This document shows, piece by piece, positions 51,801-58,493 of a stretch of 64,000 nucleotides of DNA. Position numbers and translations under genes: made by a program. The stretch spans positions 1-64,000 of the forward strand of contig NZ_NSET01000025.1 in NCBI RefSeq assembly GCF_009192945.1, given 5' to 3'. Under the pieces are notes generated by a model. It saw only the letters and a program-made list of their open reading frames with translations, had not been told where the DNA came from and ran no database searches. Position 1 is the stretch's first letter; each line of letters starts with the position of its first letter. The DNA is from Xanthomonas maliensis. GTDB taxonomy: Bacteria; Pseudomonadota; Gammaproteobacteria; Xanthomonadales; Xanthomonadaceae.

Positions 51801-52216
51801 TGGGCCCGCATCCGATGGATGCCGCGCCGCTGTCGCAAGCGCAGGCGCAACGCGCGCTGGGCGAGCTACTGCAGCTGTATCGGCAAGGCCTGCAGGCACC
51901 GCTGGCGTTTGCGCCCTACAGCAGCTGGAAATACCACCAGGCCGCGCGCAGCGAGGACCTGGACAAGGCCATCAAGGACGCCGCCGGGCAATGGCAGGCC
52001 AGCTTCGGCTGGAGCGAAGCGCAGCGCCCGGAGTTGCGCCTGGTCCATCGTGGCCGCGACCCGTTCGCCGATGCGCGGCGCTTCGTCGACTTCGCCACCA
52101 CCAGCCATCGTCTCTACAGCCTGCTCGAACAAGGCGATGCCGACGTCGCCCTCGACCATGCGCGGCTGATCGACAGCTGGCGGCACTGGCAGGGCACGCA
52201 GGAGGACGCCGAGTGA
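48812..52216 (+). CDS. recC: Exodeoxyribonuclease V subunit RecC
   Basis: A 1134-residue subunit of RecBCD (1122 in E. coli) that splits the duplex, scans for Chi and channels strands to RecB. It begins FRLYPSNALDTLAALLAQEL and contains the inactive helicase-like fold with VLIPQVAMRRWLQSTLASEH, DINGVAPW-like segments and FRVICLLGMNDGDFPRRD. The start may be the ATG at 48812 or another ATG at 48800; neither has a strong ribosome site. Its TGA overlaps the recB GTG start (GTGA), indicating coupled translation. It is first in a recC-recB-recD operon. Confidence 0.96.
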   Translation: MHATSAPDFRLYPSNALDTLAALLAQELRRPVPGQPLLQPEVVLIPQVAMRRWLQSTLASEHGVAANLEFLTPGEFVARALERNLGPADDDLDMATTQWRLYEALQADLGNDAALAPLAGYLADGDALKPWALAGELGNVFEKYQAWRRDWLLRWEAGADPDDPQARLWRAIASGRQYRARRIGHYLDRHARPDGPLPQGLPARLFAFAILNISPDVLRVLATQARVGTLHFYLPTPTQGYWGDLQTLWQRRREAGAVALFAEQVQEHPLLQAWGAAGRDFMALIGDYEVVHPLAEITAYADPLDSGRRPLVAGGLGDSLLRRMQSDLFHRRAPATPAPLSDVDRHDPSLQVHACHTRLRELQVLHDQLRALLDDPRFEPPLQPREIAVLSPDIDPYVPYLDAVFGSHGSDDALPYALADASPLASEPLADVFLTLLNLPIARFGLHEILDLLAAAPIAEAAGLDEAGLERLRGWLQAAGARWGLDAAHRRQHQAPGDDAYTWRFALDRLLLGHASGAEQDIDGVAPWPQLEGSALTALDTLLRLLRVLESAQAALAEPMTPADWREQLLELLQALFPGTPATPRAQRALDRLRSLIDQFARDAQRAQYAGRVPAEVVRAHFAAVLGESDTRAPLLTGGISFGRMVPMRLLPFRVICLLGMNDGDFPRRDPAAGLNRLTAELGSERRRHGDRSTREDDRFLFLQLFASAQEVFYLSYLGADARDGSVREPSVLVSELLAGAAQYHADPAARDALVVHHPLQPFAAAAFGAPEADDSDPRRFSYRRQWRPAVDSLTGQRHALAPWVAGALPAAGLALPSRIAIDDMRRLFADPAGQFLRHRLGMRLPDPASEDSDLEPLLAPTRGLDQYGLQQQVFGAALADDVDGLYERLRARALLPSGPLGRRQLDERLAQLRPYAQAFRQWRGDAAPQAQRLEVQLGEIALHGRIPGWYAAGVGRVQVGPLSGRNVIGHGLEWLLLRAAGEHAPYVRFFEHDDHLGPHPMDAAPLSQAQAQRALGELLQLYRQGLQAPLAFAPYSSWKYHQAARSEDLDKAIKDAAGQWQASFGWSEAQRPELRLVHRGRDPFADARRFVDFATTSHRLYSLLEQGDADVALDHARLIDSWRHWQGTQEDAE

Positions 52217-55200
52217 GCACTGCGGCGGCGACCGATCCCTACCTGCAACTGCCGCTGCATGGCGTGCGCCTGATCGAGGCCAGCGCCGGCACCGGCAAGA
52301 CCTTCACCGTGGCCACGCTGTTCACCCGCCTGGTCGTCGAGCGCGGCCTGCGCATCGGCCAGATCCTGGCGGTGACCTTCACCGATGCCGCCACCCAGGA
52401 ACTGCGACGGCGTCTCCGCGAGCGCCTGGTGTTGGCGGCCACCCTGGTCCCCGACGCCCCCGTAGGAGCGGCCCAGGCCGCGACCGACCCGCAGGCGGCC
52501 CACGCCCCACCAGATTCCGTAGGAGCGGCCCCGGCCGCGACCGAACCACCGGCAACGCAGTCACCCGACGCTCCATCAGCTTCGGTCGGAACAGCCCCGG
52601 CCGCGACCGATCTCGCCAACGACCCGTCGCGGCCTGGGCCGCTCCTACGCGACGCGCCCGACGTCCTGCTGACCCGCGCCATCCTCACCGCGCATCTGCT
52701 CGCCAGCGGCGAAACCCCGGCCGCACTGCGGCGCCGCCTGCAACAGGCGGTGGAAGAGATCGACTTGGCATCGGTGTTCACCATCCATGGCTTCTGCGCC
52801 CGCGTGCTGCGCGAGCACGCACTGGAAAGCGGCCAGGCGTTTGCCGCGCCGCAGTTGCTGGCCAACGATCGCGAATTGCTCGCCGAAGTCGCCGCCGACC
52901 TGTGGCGCCAACGCGCCGCCGATGCGGCGATGGCCGAGGATCTGATCGCGCTGTGGCAGGGCGGCCCGCCGGCCCTGGCCGCCGATCTGCGCGCGCTGGT
53001 CCGCCACCCACAGGTGCTGCCGGCCGTGTCCAGCGGCGATGACGCTGCCGACGCGCTGCTGCAGGCCTTGCACGCAGCCAGCCATGTGTTGGCGAGCGCG
53101 TTTCAGGCGCATGGCACTGCCTGTTTCGAGGCCATCGCCTCGGCCATCGACGCCGGCATCCTCAGCAAGGTCAGCTACAGACCGGAGTGGCTCACCGCGT
53201 TGTGGCATTGGCTCGACACGTTTGCCGCCGCGCCGTCGGCCGCCGCCACGCCGCATCCCAAGCTGGCCAAGTTGCATGCCGATGCACTGACCGCCGGCAC
53301 CAACAAGACGTTTGCCGGCCGCACCCCGAGCTCGCCGCTAAGCCATGCCGTCGACGGCTATCTCAACGCGCTGGCACGGGTGGAGGCATGGCGCAGCCGT
53401 CGCCGCATCCGCTTGCTGCATGCCTTGCGCGGCGATGCGATCGCCCGCCTGGCGCTGCTCAAGCGACAGCGCCGTGTGCAGACCTACGACGACTTGATCG
53501 ATGGCGTGGCGCAGGCGTTGGAAGGCCCGCAGGCCAACGTCCTGGCCCGGCAGTTGCGCAGCCAGTATGCGATCGCCTTGGTGGACGAATTCCAGGACAC
53601 CGACGATCGCCAATGGACGATCTTCTCCAATGTGTTCGGCGAAGGCCCCTTGGCCCGCGCCGCCGGCCTGCCGCCGGCGCTGTTCCTGATCGGCGATCCC
53701 AAGCAGGCCATCTACGGCTTCCGTGGCGGCGATGTGCGCACCTATCTCGCTGCGGCGCGCACCGCCGAACCGGCGCCGCCGTTGGGCCACAACTTTCGCT
53801 CGCGGCCCGGCGTGCTGGCGGCGATCGATGCGCTGTACGCGCAGGCCGGCTATCGCGAGGCCTTTCTCACCGATGGCATTGCCTTCCATCCGGTGCAGCC
53901 GGGCACCAAACGGCTGCAGACCGACCTGCAACGCGCCGGCGCCACCGCGCCGGCGCTGACGCTCTGGCGCGCGCCCGAACCGCCGCCGCCCGCCAAGGGC
54001 AAGCCAAAACCCTGGAGCGCTGGCCGCGCCCGCGAGCTGGCCACCGCCGCCTGCGTCGCAGCGATCCGCGGCTGGTTGGCCGAGGGCCATGACGGCACCG
54101 CCACCATCACCGGTCGCCCGGTGCAGGCCGGCGACATCGCCGTGCTGGTGCGCAGCCATGGCGAGGCCACGCGCATCCAGCAGGCGCTGGGCGCGGTGGG
54201 CATTGCGGCGGTCGCCGCGGGCAAACAAAGCCTGTTCGCCACCGACGAGGCGCTGGAACTGCTGGCGCTGCTGCAGGCCTTGCTCGATCCCGGCGACGAC
54301 AGCCGTCTGCGTGCCGCCCTGGCCACCGTGTTGATCGGCGAAGATGCCATCGCCATCGCCGCCTTGGAGCGCGACGGCGAACGCCACCGGCGCTGGCAAC
54401 AGCAGGCGCTGGACTGGCGCGAGCGCTGGCAGCGCGGTGGCCCGCTGGCATTGATCGGCGAGCTCGGTGCCGCGCAAGGGCAACGCCTGCTCGCGTTGGT
54501 CGACGGCGAGCGCCGGCTCACCAACTACCTGCAGCTGGCCGAACTGCTGCAGGAGGCCGATGCGCGCGCGCTCGGCCCGCATGGTCTGGTCGACTGGCTG
54601 GCGCGTCGCATTGCCAATGCCGACAAAGACGACGACGCCCAGCAACTGCGGCTGGAGTCGGATGCACGCCGCGTGCAGATCGTCACCCTGCACAAGAGCA
54701 AGGGCCTGGAATACCCGCTGGTGTTCTTGCCGTACATCGGCATCGGCCGCACCGACAAGGGCGCCGGCCGCCATTGCGTGGTGCATACGCCCGACGGCAG
54801 GCGTCAGTTGCAATGGAACGTGTCCAAATGGAGCCAGGATAAGGACGATCCCGCATGGAGCGCCGCCGAGGCCGCCTGGAAGCAGGAACAACGCGCCGAG
54901 GATGCACGCTTGCTCTATGTCGGCCTGACCCGCGCCGAGCACGCCTTGTGGATCGCCACCGGCCCATTCCATCGGCACGAGCGCACCGCCGTGGCCGGCA
55001 TGCTGCGCGCGCTCGACGCGCTGCAAGCCACGGCAGGCGCCGACACGGTGGTGGTCGACACCGCCATGCCGCCAGCCAGTGTGTCGCGGTTGCCGCCGCC
55101 GAGCGAGGCGCAGGTGCCACCGGCGCGGGTGGCGCAACGACAGATCGCCCCGGAATGGTGGGTCTATAGCTTCACCCAACTGGCCAACGCCGATGCCGGT

Positions 55201-56079
55201 GCCGCCAGCGATCCGATGGCCAGTGCCACCGTGGTCGGCAGCGGCGGCAGCGACGAACCGGCCGCCAGCGACGTGGCCGCCGTGGCGGTCGCCAGCGAGG
55301 CCGAGCCGTTCGATCCGCGCTTTGCCGGTAACCGCTTCGGCGTGGTGATGCACGACGTGTTCGAGCGCTGCGACTTCGCCGCCTGGCGCGACTGGCAGCC
55401 GACCCAGGCCGCGCCCGAGGGCCAAGCCGCACCGATCCTCGAAGCGCTGCAACGCGGCGGCTATGCCCAGGACGAACTGGCCGATGGCTTGCGCATGCTC
55501 ACCGCGCTGATCGGCCACACCCTGACCGTGGTCCTGCCCGAAGGCACCACGCTGGCCGCCGTGCCAGCGCCGCAACGCCGCAACGAGATGGAATTCCATT
55601 TCGCCATGCGCCCCACACGCATCGATGCCTTGCTGGCGCTGCTGCATCGCTTCAACGTGGTCAGCGACCGTCAGGCCTTCGGCGCGCGCCAGCGGCTGGA
55701 AGGCCTGATGACCGGTCTGATCGACCTGACCTACAGCGTCGATGGCCGCTGGTACGTGCTGGACTACAAGTCCAACCGCTTGCCGCGCTATGACGCCGAC
55801 AGCCTGGCGCGCGCGATGGCCCATAGCGAATACGAACTGCAGGCGCTGATCTATACCGTGGCGCTGCACCGCTGGCTGCGCTTCCGTCTCGGCGATGACT
55901 ATGACTACGAGCGCGATTTCGGCGGCGTGCGCTATCTGTTCTGCCGTGGCCTGGACGCGGCCCGTCCCGCGGTCGACGGCACGCCGGCGCCCGGCATCCA
56001 CGCCTGGCGCTTCGCACCGGCGCTGGTGCAGTCCCTGGATGCGCTCTTCGCCGGCGCGTCGGCCGAGGCACTCGCATGA
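52213..56079 (+). CDS. recB: Exodeoxyribonuclease V subunit RecB (helicase-nuclease), with REP-derived insert
   Basis: A 1288-residue UvrD-type helicase and nuclease (1180 in E. coli). The GTG start at 52213 overlaps the recC stop. Walker A EASAGTGKT is at residues 22-30, then VDEFQDTDDRQWTIF, LIGDPKQAIYGFRGGD and VTLHKSKGLEYPLVFLPY. The nuclease centre VLDYKSNRLPRYD is near residue 1182. Between residues about 84 and 146 is a low-complexity insert with VGAAQAAT, VGAAPAAT and VGTAPAAT, encoded by three GTAG-type REP units plus one inverted unit. Another long stretch (about 985-1030) is also Ala/Ser-rich. Its stop overlaps the first of three 122-bp tandem ORFs leading to recD. Confidence 0.96.
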   Translation: MSTAAATDPYLQLPLHGVRLIEASAGTGKTFTVATLFTRLVVERGLRIGQILAVTFTDAATQELRRRLRERLVLAATLVPDAPVGAAQAATDPQAAHAPPDSVGAAPAATEPPATQSPDAPSASVGTAPAATDLANDPSRPGPLLRDAPDVLLTRAILTAHLLASGETPAALRRRLQQAVEEIDLASVFTIHGFCARVLREHALESGQAFAAPQLLANDRELLAEVAADLWRQRAADAAMAEDLIALWQGGPPALAADLRALVRHPQVLPAVSSGDDAADALLQALHAASHVLASAFQAHGTACFEAIASAIDAGILSKVSYRPEWLTALWHWLDTFAAAPSAAATPHPKLAKLHADALTAGTNKTFAGRTPSSPLSHAVDGYLNALARVEAWRSRRRIRLLHALRGDAIARLALLKRQRRVQTYDDLIDGVAQALEGPQANVLARQLRSQYAIALVDEFQDTDDRQWTIFSNVFGEGPLARAAGLPPALFLIGDPKQAIYGFRGGDVRTYLAAARTAEPAPPLGHNFRSRPGVLAAIDALYAQAGYREAFLTDGIAFHPVQPGTKRLQTDLQRAGATAPALTLWRAPEPPPPAKGKPKPWSAGRARELATAACVAAIRGWLAEGHDGTATITGRPVQAGDIAVLVRSHGEATRIQQALGAVGIAAVAAGKQSLFATDEALELLALLQALLDPGDDSRLRAALATVLIGEDAIAIAALERDGERHRRWQQQALDWRERWQRGGPLALIGELGAAQGQRLLALVDGERRLTNYLQLAELLQEADARALGPHGLVDWLARRIANADKDDDAQQLRLESDARRVQIVTLHKSKGLEYPLVFLPYIGIGRTDKGAGRHCVVHTPDGRRQLQWNVSKWSQDKDDPAWSAAEAAWKQEQRAEDARLLYVGLTRAEHALWIATGPFHRHERTAVAGMLRALDALQATAGADTVVVDTAMPPASVSRLPPPSEAQVPPARVAQRQIAPEWWVYSFTQLANADAGAASDPMASATVVGSGGSDEPAASDVAAVAVASEAEPFDPRFAGNRFGVVMHDVFERCDFAAWRDWQPTQAAPEGQAAPILEALQRGGYAQDELADGLRMLTALIGHTLTVVLPEGTTLAAVPAPQRRNEMEFHFAMRPTRIDALLALLHRFNVVSDRQAFGARQRLEGLMTGLIDLTYSVDGRWYVLDYKSNRLPRYDADSLARAMAHSEYELQALIYTVALHRWLRFRLGDDYDYERDFGGVRYLFCRGLDAARPAVDGTPAPGIHAWRFAPALVQSLDALFAGASAEALA
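52462..52648. repeat. GTAG-type REP-like units inside recB
   Basis: Three direct units of 24 bp: GTAGGAGCGGCCCAGGCC... at 52462-52485, GTAGGAGCGGCCCCGGCC... at 52519-52542, and a diverged GTCGGAACAGCCCCGGCC... at 52585-52608, each ending GCGACC. An inverted unit GTCGCGGCCTGGGCCGCTCC... lies at 52626-52648. The direct units start 57 and 66 bp apart, both multiples of three, so all are read in the same frame as Val-Gly-x-Ala-x-Ala-Ala-Thr. They resemble the intergenic element at 22106-22173 and have become coding sequence. Confidence 0.88.
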
Positions 56080-56201
56080 AGCCGCGCGCCGATCTGTACG
56101 AACAGCGCCGTCCATGCGCGTTCGATCATGGCCACGTGCCAAGTCTGACCCACGCGCTGCGTGCACTGTGCGCCAGCGTAGCTACGGAGGTCGTGCCATG
56201 A
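56076..56201 (+). CDS. Tandem 41-codon ORF, unit 1 (recB-recD junction)
   Basis: ATG at 56076 overlaps the recB stop (ATGA). The frame encodes MKPRADLYEQRRPCAFDHGH then VPSLTHALRALCASVATEVV and a final Pro, and its TGA overlaps the ATG of unit 2. The first half resembles the start of RecD (MSLLADLQAKN...LDH) and the second half the end of RecB (APALVQSLDALFAGASAEAL). It is probably a product of junction duplication; whether the peptide is made or useful is unknown. Confidence 0.45.
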   Translation: MKPRADLYEQRRPCAFDHGHVPSLTHALRALCASVATEVVP

Positions 56202-56323
56202 GGCTGCGTGCCGATCTGCACGTCAAGCGCTCCACAAGTGCGTTCGATCATGACCATGTGCCAGGCTTGACCCACGCGCTGTGCACCTTGCGCGCCAGCG
56301 CAGCTAGCGAGGTCGTGCCATGA
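56198..56323 (+). CDS. Tandem 41-codon ORF, unit 2
   Basis: Encodes MRLRADLHVKRSTSAFDHDH then VPGLTHALCTLRASAASEVV and a final Pro. It starts in the overlap with unit 1 and ends in the overlap with unit 3. Conserved residues across units are M, A-x-L, R, AFDH, P, THAL, L, A and E. No known domain. Confidence 0.45.
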   Translation: MRLRADLHVKRSTSAFDHDHVPGLTHALCTLRASAASEVVP

Positions 56324-56445
56324 GGCTGCATGCCACTCTGCACGTCAAGCGCCCTGCAAATGCGTTCGATCATGGCCGCGCGCCAGGGTGGACCCACGCA
56401 CTGTGCGCCCTGTTCGCCCGCACAGCTGCCGAGGCCTTGGCATGA
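56320..56445 (+). CDS. Tandem 41-codon ORF, unit 3, coupled to recD
   Basis: Encodes MRLHATLHVKRPANAFDHGR then APGWTHALCALFARTAAEAL and a final Ala. Its TGA overlaps the recD ATG. Its C-terminus (ALFARTAAEALA) is the closest of the three to the RecB C-terminus (ALFAGASAEALA), consistent with the original recB tail having been displaced next to recD by duplication. Confidence 0.45.
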   Translation: MRLHATLHVKRPANAFDHGRAPGWTHALCALFARTAAEALA

Positions 56446-58493
56446 GTCTGCTCGCCGATCTACAGGCCAAGAACCATCTACGCACGCTCGACCACGCGTT
56501 CGCGCAGAGCCTGCGTCGGCTGCGTCCGGACACGCCCGATACCGTGCTGCTGGCCGCTGCGCTGGCCTCGCTGGCCGTGGCCAATGGCCATGCCGGCCTC
56601 GATCCGCGCCGCCCACGGCTGCTGGTCGATGCGGACGTCGCCTGGCCGGCTGCCGACGCCTGGATGGCCCAACTGCAGGCCTCGCCGTGGATCGCCCAAC
56701 CCGAGGATCCGCTGGCTGCTGCGGCCAGCGATGCACCCCTCGTCCTTGAGCACGGCCTGCTCTACCTCCGCCGCTATCGCGAATACGAAGCCCGCCTGGC
56801 CGCCGGGTTGACCCGCATCGCGTCACACACGTTGCCAGCGACCGAGAGTGCTGCGCTCGCTGCGGTGTTTGCTGCGCTGTTTCCCAGCGCGACCACCGGC
56901 CAGGATCGCCAAGCCCAGGCCGCCGCGCTGGCGCTGCGCCGCGCCCTGCTGCTGATCACCGGCGGCCCCGGCACCGGCAAGACCACCACCATCGCCCGTT
57001 TGTTGCTGCTGCGTCTCGCCCAGGCGCATGCCGCCGGCCAACCGCCCCCCCGCATCGCGCTGGCCGCGCCCACCGGCCGCGCTGCCGAGCGCATGGCCGA
57101 AAGCCTGCGCATCGCGCTGGCGCGCGCGATCGAGCAGGGCTTGCCCGCAGAACCTCAAGGCGCATCCCCTCTCCCGCCTGCGGGAGAGGGTGCCCGCAGG
57201 GCGGGTGAGGGCACCGCTCCTACCGACGTCTCCTGGCACAGCGCCCTGCCCACCGGCGCCAGCACCTTGCATCGCCTGCTGGGCGTGATTCCGGATTCTC
57301 CGCACTTCCGTCACGACGCCGACAACCCGTTGCCGTTCGACCTCATCGTCGTCGACGAAGCCTCGATGGTCGACCTGCCGCTGATGTGCAAGCTGGTCGA
57401 TGCGGTGGCCGATGGCACCCAGCTGATCCTGCTTGGCGATGCCGACCAACTGCCCTCGGTGGAAGCCGGCGACGTACTCGCCGCCATCCTGCAGGCCGCC
57501 GGTCCCGGCGACACGCTGCCGCCGGACGATGCGCGCGCGCTGCAACCCTTGCTGGGCAGCGCGCCCGTGACCGCCCCAGCCGCCAGCACACCCGCCGGTC
57601 ACCTCGCCGGTCACCGTGTGCACTTGCTACGCGGCTACCGCCAGGCCGCCGACTTCGCCCTGGCGCCGCTGGCCGATGCCGTTCGCATTGGCGATGCCGA
57701 CACCGCACTGTCGCTATTGCGCAGCGGCGCGCTGCCAGGCGTGCACTTCCACGAAGACGGCGATGACCCATTGAGCCTGGGCCGTGACGCCTTGCTCGCC
57801 CACTGGCACGCGCTGACCGCGACCAACGATCCGGCCGATGCCCTGCGCCAGGCCGGCCGCCTGCGCTTGCTCACCGCGGTGCGCGCCGGCCCGCAAGGCG
57901 CGCGCGGCCTCAACGCCCGTATCGAACAACTGCTGGCCGAAACCGGCTCCGGTGCCCGCCGCCTCGGTGCGGCCTCGCCCTGGTTTCACGGCCGCCTGCT
58001 GCTGATCACCGAAAACAGCTATCGCCATGGCCTGTTCAACGGTGACGTCGGCATCTGTCTGCGCAGCGAAGCCAGTCCCGCTTCGGCACGTGACCCGCAA
58101 GCCACCCTGGTGGCCTGGTTCGACGGCGATGGCGACGGCCAGGTGCGCGGCTTCCACCCCGCCGCGCTGCCGGCGCACGAAAGCGCGTTCGCCATGACCG
58201 TGCACAAGGCCCAGGGCAGCGAATTCGACGATGTCTGGCTGCAACTGCCCACCCGCGACGCCCGCGTGCTCAGCCGCGAACTGCTCTACACCGGCAGCAC
58301 CCGCGCCCGTCGCAGCCTGCACCTGTGCGCAAGCGAAGCCGTCATCCGCAGCGCCCTGGCCCGCCACGCCGCACGCATCTCGGGCTTGGCGTGGCGGTTG
58401 GGGAGCAAGGGCGATACGTCGCAAGCCAGCGTTGCGCCCGAGCCAGCGGCAGAGCCGCCTGCCGGCGAGCCGGTGCAGGGTGCGTTGTTCTGA
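56442..58493 (+). CDS. recD: Exodeoxyribonuclease V subunit RecD, with repeat-derived insert
   Basis: A 683-residue SF1B 5'-3' helicase (608 in E. coli). The ATG at 56442 overlaps the last tandem ORF. Motifs: Walker A ITGGPGTGKTTTIARLLLLR, LAAPTGRAAERMAESL, Walker B LIVVDEASMVDLPLM, GDADQLPSVEAGDVLAAI, and the late MTVHKAQGSEFDDVWLQLP. Between the Ia motif and STLHRLLG there are about 40 residues (including PLPPAGEGARRAGEGTAP) where E. coli has about 16. They are encoded by a dispersed hairpin repeat at 57166-57222. It completes the recC-recB-recD operon. Confidence 0.96.
   Translation: MSLLADLQAKNHLRTLDHAFAQSLRRLRPDTPDTVLLAAALASLAVANGHAGLDPRRPRLLVDADVAWPAADAWMAQLQASPWIAQPEDPLAAAASDAPLVLEHGLLYLRRYREYEARLAAGLTRIASHTLPATESAALAAVFAALFPSATTGQDRQAQAAALALRRALLLITGGPGTGKTTTIARLLLLRLAQAHAAGQPPPRIALAAPTGRAAERMAESLRIALARAIEQGLPAEPQGASPLPPAGEGARRAGEGTAPTDVSWHSALPTGASTLHRLLGVIPDSPHFRHDADNPLPFDLIVVDEASMVDLPLMCKLVDAVADGTQLILLGDADQLPSVEAGDVLAAILQAAGPGDTLPPDDARALQPLLGSAPVTAPAASTPAGHLAGHRVHLLRGYRQAADFALAPLADAVRIGDADTALSLLRSGALPGVHFHEDGDDPLSLGRDALLAHWHALTATNDPADALRQAGRLRLLTAVRAGPQGARGLNARIEQLLAETGSGARRLGAASPWFHGRLLLITENSYRHGLFNGDVGICLRSEASPASARDPQATLVAWFDGDGDGQVRGFHPAALPAHESAFAMTVHKAQGSEFDDVWLQLPTRDARVLSRELLYTGSTRARRSLHLCASEAVIRSALARHAARISGLAWRLGSKGDTSQASVAPEPAAEPPAGEPVQGALF
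57166..57222. repeat. Dispersed hairpin repeat inside recD coding sequence
   Basis: Starts CCCCTCTCCCGCCTGCGGGAG and continues with TGCCCGCAGGGCGGGTGAGGGC and CGCTCCTAC. Read on the minus strand it gives CCCTCACCCGCCCTGCGGGC then CCCTCTCCCGCAGGCGGGAG: the same two-hairpin element as at 35622-35670 and 35739-35788. It is flanked by a GTAGGAGCG word as in the REP units. Its frame is open and adds about 19 residues to RecD. Confidence 0.82.

Follow-up and report, generated by a model that had tools for sequence, protein, structure and literature searches.

A probable translational relay of short tandem open reading frames between recB and recD in Xanthomonas maliensis

The recB and recD genes of Xanthomonas maliensis are separated by three tandem units of 122 nt, each of which carries one 41-codon open reading frame (ORF) and is joined to its neighbours by ATGA overlaps. 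Comparisons with relatives make it likely, in our view, that this array acts as a termination-reinitiation relay: a duplication or insertion would survive only if translation still reached recD, and the encoded peptides would be dispensable. Here we describe the array, the fillers found at the same boundary across the family, and the evidence that bears on this and on other readings.

Results

Three 122-nt units join recB to recD in an unbroken chain

The window, by which we mean the whole 64-kb stretch of DNA that was analysed, holds recC, recB and recD in that order. On the + strand, recB (exodeoxyribonuclease V beta) occupies positions 52213..56079 and matches TIGR00609 at 723.9 bits against an NCBIfam cut-off of 696, and recD (exodeoxyribonuclease V alpha) occupies 56442..58493 and matches TIGR01447 at 548 bits against a cut-off of 310. 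The array lies between them on the same strand, at 56076-56441 (366 nt). The start of the unit 1 ORF (56076..56201) overlaps the recB stop codon (56077-56079) in an ATGA at 56076..56079. Its own stop shares a second ATGA, at 56198..56201, with the start of the unit 2 ORF (56198..56323), which meets the unit 3 ORF (56320..56445) in a third at 56320..56323, and unit 3 stops in the ATGA that starts recD at 56442..56445. The original prediction, made from the letters of the window, described three 122-nt units with one 41-codon ORF each, and its coordinates and frames proved exact; the unbroken chain that it drew from recB to recD is held together by these four overlaps. Because a chain with 4-nt overlaps needs units of 3n-4 nt, 122 (2 mod 3) is a length of the required kind. 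An SD-like motif stands ahead of every start, GAGG for unit 1 (56065..56068), GGAGG for unit 2 (56186..56190), and GAGG for both unit 3 (56309..56312) and recD (56431..56434), which fits a relay. As a control junction we used the recC stop and recB start, which overlap in a GTGA at 52213..52216 (+ strand) with no spacer.

The repeat structure is clear at the DNA level. TRF reported a period of 122, 2.8 copies and 80% matches for the array, and ungapped identities between the units were 78, 72 and 80%, whereas 5000 random pairs of 122 nt taken from recB averaged 29% and never exceeded 54%. An assembly artefact, named in advance as something that could overturn the prediction, is unlikely, since the copies are 72-80% identical and spacers also occur in genomes assembled as a single contig (G300, G309, G261 and G164). 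Searching the same genome with the junction found no second locus, the only other match being a 36-nt stretch at 86%.

Several other features of the region were observed alongside the array. The window holds two TRF arrays scoring at least 80, and the second is a 27-nt repeat inside recB (52459-52544, residues 83-111; 3 copies, 72% matches, 14% indels). Around 55958-55987 in recB, the DNA match breaks in many Xanthomonas species and resumes past extra sequence, so that this linker, close to the C-terminal end of RecB, seems prone to insertions. Within recD, positions 57165-57212 (residues 242-257) hold the stretch SPLPPAGEGARRAGEG, which resembles a dispersed repeat inserted in frame. Just downstream of recD, a gene for a HigB-like toxin (PF05015, 58574-58873) is followed by one for a helix-turn-helix protein (PF01381, 58891-59181), and the two look like an ordinary toxin-antitoxin pair.

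Spacers recur at the recB-recD boundary across the family

Three samples of relatives were pooled. The genus sample consisted of 35 genomes searched, of which 33 were usable (G027 and G028 were not, the latter giving only short weak matches). For the family sample we searched 297 genomes, 292 of which matched, and read 30 automatic and 60 fetched loci, some repeating genus loci; the named-locus sample held 38 loci, 36 of which reach recD. Together these gave 112 distinct junctions, and 111 once X. phaseoli ATCC 49119 (L020/L140) was dropped because its recB and recD are themselves frameshifted, making the assembly or the gene unreliable. Judged against relatives, the frameshifts in both genes are small and are probably assembly errors. 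Three loci that end before recD (L048, L143 and L155) were left out, and L103, which has no start near the homologous part of RecD, was kept outside both the direct and the spaced counts.

At 72 of the 111 junctions there is no spacer, and the overlap is exactly 4 nt at each of them (65 ATGA, 7 GTGA) when the choice of start prefers NTGA, the tblastn start alone giving 67 of 72. These 72 direct junctions and the four ATGA sites of the window have the layout expected of coupled gene pairs, in which stop and start overlap by 4 or 1 nt or lie a very short distance apart. A spacer of 124-555 nt is present at 38 of the 111 junctions, 24 of them within the genus. In the window and 40 relatives, recC and recB meet in a bare 4-nt overlap without exception (41 of 41), and thus, within the operon, the expansions are specific to recB-recD in these genomes. 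Two loci have another outcome: RecD would gain an N-terminal extension of 68 residues in X. axonopodis (L017) or of 77 residues at L103, where the ATGA overlap is direct, because the reading frame that follows the recB ATGA is also that of recD.

At the level of the class, 143 of 229 genomes gave a match to the recD family model. Among the best 30 recD loci of these 143 genomes, the recB tail was not found in 8; an in-frame recD start lies at most 8 nt from the recB stop in 21 of the remaining 22 (one, L224, from the same family), under a rule that picks the start nearest recB and with the first RecD-like residue more than 200 nt downstream in six of the 22. A class-wide sequence query gave 3 of 10 genomes.

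The path through the spacers is open

All 38 spacers can be read from end to end, either as chained ORFs or, in X. axonopodis, as a spacer ORF that continues in frame into recD. A random-frame shuffle predicted 14.9 open spacers under a relaxed rule, and 5.5 under a strict 4-nt rule that 26 of the 38 satisfy. At 11 of the 38 junctions the recB stop is TAG and the ATG of the next ORF lies 8 nt upstream, giving an 11-nt overlap in place of ATGA, and the later links are ATGA.

These counts must be weighed against chance acting on GC-rich sequence, in which neutral duplications and insertions would leave a path whose openness merely reflects the rarity of stop codons. The 14.9 spacers that the null itself leaves open speak for this reading, as does the fact that an exactly copied unit keeps frame automatically. 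The per-spacer null probability under the relaxed rule ranged from 0.05 to 0.62, and since GC-rich DNA is often open, a single spacer is weak evidence. A fixed-length null gave 0.05-0.94 per spacer among 35 spacers, which showed that openness alone says little, and the test was redone with a randomised frame for that reason. We settled the criteria after an initial inspection of the data, and the numbers from the chain test are therefore descriptive.

The joint probability depends on how the spacers are grouped. Clustering by similarity over 60% of length gave 9 groups, or 8 once the window and X. melonis were merged because their last units are equal in length; with one value for each of the 8, the product of null probabilities was between 1.2e-7 (strict rule, means) and 2e-4 (relaxed rule, maxima). 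Clustering by any local hit gave 5 groups, one of which holds 32 of the 38 spacers joined partly through shared repeats. With the window and X. melonis merged, this loosest grouping has 4 groups and a product of 4.7e-4 to 1.4e-3 (strict) or 0.01 to 0.024 (relaxed), the latter a point in favour of chance, and it makes the argument from separate origins weaker. By sequence similarity, the spacers are 4-8 unrelated groups, the number depending on the clustering.

The window array has a single near relative, that of X. melonis (L004), the closest species sampled. The X. melonis array is 4 nt shorter overall and aligns to that of the window at only 66% with many gaps, compared with 83-85% in the flanks; from its position and its 41-codon last unit it seems to be homologous. 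Both internal ATGA sites are present, yet the frame is not ended at either of them. Instead, one 121-codon ORF runs from the recB ATGA to the recD ATGA, and between the two internal sites it is in a different frame. The unit boundaries have been lost and the open path has been kept.

Most length changes in the spacers keep the frame

Ten close pairs of spacers held 202 substitutions and no indels, having been chosen for equal ORF lengths, with four other close pairs that contain indels falling outside the choice. Noncoding DNA near the same genes was compared in the same pairs: upstream of recC, nine pairs had 55 gaps and 356 substitutions, and downstream of recD, eight pairs had 54 gaps and 250 substitutions, many of the alignments on both sides being poor. 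The four best-aligned pairs upstream of recC (5 gaps and 87 substitutions) predict 11.6 gaps in the spacers. Nonsense changes were also absent from the ten pairs, where 5.6 were expected.

We repeated the comparison between nearest neighbours, keeping thresholds of at least 80% identity and at least 60% coverage, dropping the choice of equal lengths and taking in such indel cases. This gave 18 pairs covering 29 of the 38 spacers, the other 9, the window's included, having no close enough neighbour. Nine of the 18 pairs had no indel, seven differed by a net multiple of three (15, 24, 24, 27, 45, 60 and 96 nt) and two did not; both exceptions are differences of 2 nt and involve X. axonopodis, with its fusion to recD. 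Counted as distinct length changes, 7 of 8 were multiples of three (P = 0.0026 at one third). This holds for net lengths, as single gaps (for example 11, 1 and 14) are not always multiples of three and their placement is set by the aligner.

The complete set of open spacers, the net length changes in threes, the missing nonsense changes and the absence of indels from the ten chosen pairs against the 11.6 predicted all run counter to chance, which we consider unlikely. The chain and indel tests instead support selection to preserve translation into recD, as had been suggested from the window.

Junction duplication is plausible in the window and clear in eight relatives

Each unit had been interpreted as the head of RecD fused to the tail of RecB, produced by repeated duplication of the recB-stop/recD-start junction. 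The head was recovered in all three units of the window, with local scores of 39, 38 and 32 for units 1, 2 and 3 against shuffle maxima of 25, 25 and 27. The tail was marginal and confined to unit 3 (38 against a maximum of 35), units 1 and 2 scoring 22 each against 24 and 29. At eight other junctions in the family (L047, L051, L054 and L057-L061) the duplication is unmistakable: every unit, in 1-3 copies, is plainly a RecD head followed by a RecB tail, with head scores of 61-116, tail scores of 83-170 and shuffle maxima of at most 38. Where these eight have a single chained unit, its length is 122, 125, 134, 149, 158 or 185 nt, every one of these values being 2 mod 3. Because the tail match in the window is marginal, we draw on these eight clear junctions as an analogy, by which it is plausible that the window array too arose by duplication of the recB-recD junction.

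Among the other spacers scored against their flanks, those of L016, L027 and L083 resemble only their own recB tail, and for L004, L005, L014, L021, L062, L113, L117 and L150 neither flank matched above shuffles. L021, L034, L007, L023 and L029 form a separate group with two chained spacer ORFs (61+61, 93+61 or 61+76 codons), and inspection by eye suggests that the two peptides of L021 are similar. A GC-rich repeat reading SPRERGWGEG was seen in several spacers or recB tails.

Species with and without a spacer are interleaved in a tree that took in 66 of the 111 junctions, and hence spacers have been gained or lost repeatedly. Across the family the number of chained spacer ORFs ranges from 0 to 3, and array copy number differs between species (a variable-number tandem repeat is defined by differences between strains, and the window's species is represented by one). 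Such variation would suit an array that tunes RecD below RecB, with a restart of less than 100% efficiency at each step so that copy number sets the subunit ratio. However, near relatives differ freely, unspaced junctions standing beside spaced ones in the tree, which looks like tolerance instead, and we hold tuning to be quite improbable.

Spacer codons evolve almost neutrally in relatives

Substitutions in the spacers of the ten pairs are spread evenly over the three codon positions (74/57/71, P = 0.29); at the start of recD in the same pairs the pattern is 39/26/112. The dN/dS of the spacers was 0.95 compared with 0.22 for recD, a value that describes the relatives' spacers, the window's own units having given no measurable one. 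Purifying selection on amino acids, as expected of a functional small protein, was not found in the spacers of these ten pairs.

This result bears on the idea, also raised in the original prediction, that the peptides themselves have a role, for example as RecB- or RecD-binding microproteins derived from RecD-head/RecB-tail fragments. Conserved open frames and the likeness of some units to pieces of RecB and RecD would be expected under such a role, but the dN/dS and the flat codon pattern would not. Moreover, the spacers are unrelated between lineages or absent altogether (72 of 111), X. melonis no longer has the unit boundaries and reads the middle part in another frame, and the three peptides of the window have no match in Pfam or NCBIfam at E up to 1. 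Judged on the dN/dS of 0.95, peptide function is very unlikely, and this part of the prediction was not borne out. Action of the spacer as RNA or DNA (structured RNA, promoter or terminator), with incidental ORFs, would accommodate the GC-rich palindrome-like repeats in the spacer or recB tail of some relatives, but it leaves frame conservation unexplained and is exceedingly improbable. An RNA-level explanation was rejected for the window array because Rfam gave no hit with E of 1 or less, folding was unremarkable (z = +0.97) and no site resembled a promoter or terminator.

Discussion

A termination-reinitiation relay would account for these observations as follows. Synthesis of RecD is probably coupled to that of RecB by termination and reinitiation at the ATGA overlap. 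If the recB-stop/recD-start junction were duplicated in tandem, or if other DNA were inserted there, the genes would be pushed apart, and the only versions to survive would be those in which a ribosome leaving recB restarts at once and translates as far as the recD start. With an SD-like motif and a start of its own, and a stop that overlaps the next start, each of the three 122-nt units would be translated in turn, and then recD. The peptides would be by-products, and the selected thing would be the open path. We infer from the sequence comparisons that the ORFs are translated, that recD is coupled to recB through them and that loss of the path lowers fitness. SD-like motifs precede 22 of 47 spacer ORFs compared with 161 of 2200 random sites; 25 of the 47 spacer starts and 23 of the 38 spaced recD starts have none.

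Work on other genes suggests why an open path could matter. In the available text of one study, reinitiation all but ceased in six gene pairs with gaps of about 20 nt, and subunits of complexes were over-represented among short overlaps (PMC10666635). If this applies here, less RecD would be made after an insertion between recB and recD that ribosomes do not translate, but not after one that is bridged by a relay of overlapping ORFs. The recB-recD boundary resembles the gene pairs described in the accessible parts of PMC6728339 and PMC10666635 in its 4-nt ATGA overlaps between subunits of one complex, and differs from them in that non-conserved small ORFs stand between the partners, which would turn a single step into a multi-step chain. 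It also resembles, as far as the text at hand of PMC13255528 describes them, synthetic upstream nonsense ORFs in which a short ORF with an irrelevant peptide raises translation of the next gene; those boosters are engineered, whereas the recB-recD ORFs appear natural and repeatedly evolved.

The closest precedent for the array appears to be the mycobacterial interspersed repetitive units (MIRUs; Supply et al. 1997, via a 2025 review, PMC12548453), whose logic it would share without being a dispersed repeat. According to the portion of that review available, the ORF of an inserted MIRU enters into coupling with the local gene at a spacing of -4 nt, which probably limits harm. The likeness, as far as these sources go, lies in short repeats at gene starts with a unit ORF at -4 nt to its neighbour, known here as an overlap in the sequence. 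A MIRU-VNTR array between rnc and fpg1 is likewise a filled gene boundary that is long in one lineage only: in the available part of PMC2734929, it spans 279-358 bp in the M. tuberculosis complex and 1-54 bp in the other species listed, and it ends at a start codon. MIRUs are, however, dispersed and apparently mobile, whereas the recB-recD unit sits at one locus, apart from the 36-nt stretch; the unit also appears to be built from its own flanking genes, at a site filled by unrelated sequences across lineages. Among the papers listed in literature searches, none was on the recB-recD array; PMC12342828, the only one to contain recB, recD and "translational coupling", does not discuss coupling of recB to recD in the part that was available.

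For the family as a whole, we lean towards a broader reading of the relay, with somewhat less assurance than for the array itself. At the recB-recD boundary, junction duplication or insertion would repeatedly make new sequence, which would be kept as translated "relay ORFs" that are neutral at the amino-acid level, with selection requiring only that they stay open and stop at the following start. The product would never be the selected trait, and the boundary may be a nursery for N-terminal extensions of RecD (X. axonopodis, L017) or longer fused ORFs (X. melonis).

With frame kept, stops avoided and amino acids free, these selective signals can be separated from sequence alone. Catalogues of microproteins and models of new-gene birth should allow for small ORFs that are conserved, and perhaps translated, without encoding a useful peptide. 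The boundary also offers a natural experiment on a disputed question, whether ribosomes restart immediately or scan across gaps: different fillers stand between two subunits of one complex at 38 junctions, and, as read from their sequences, none would leave an untranslated gap.
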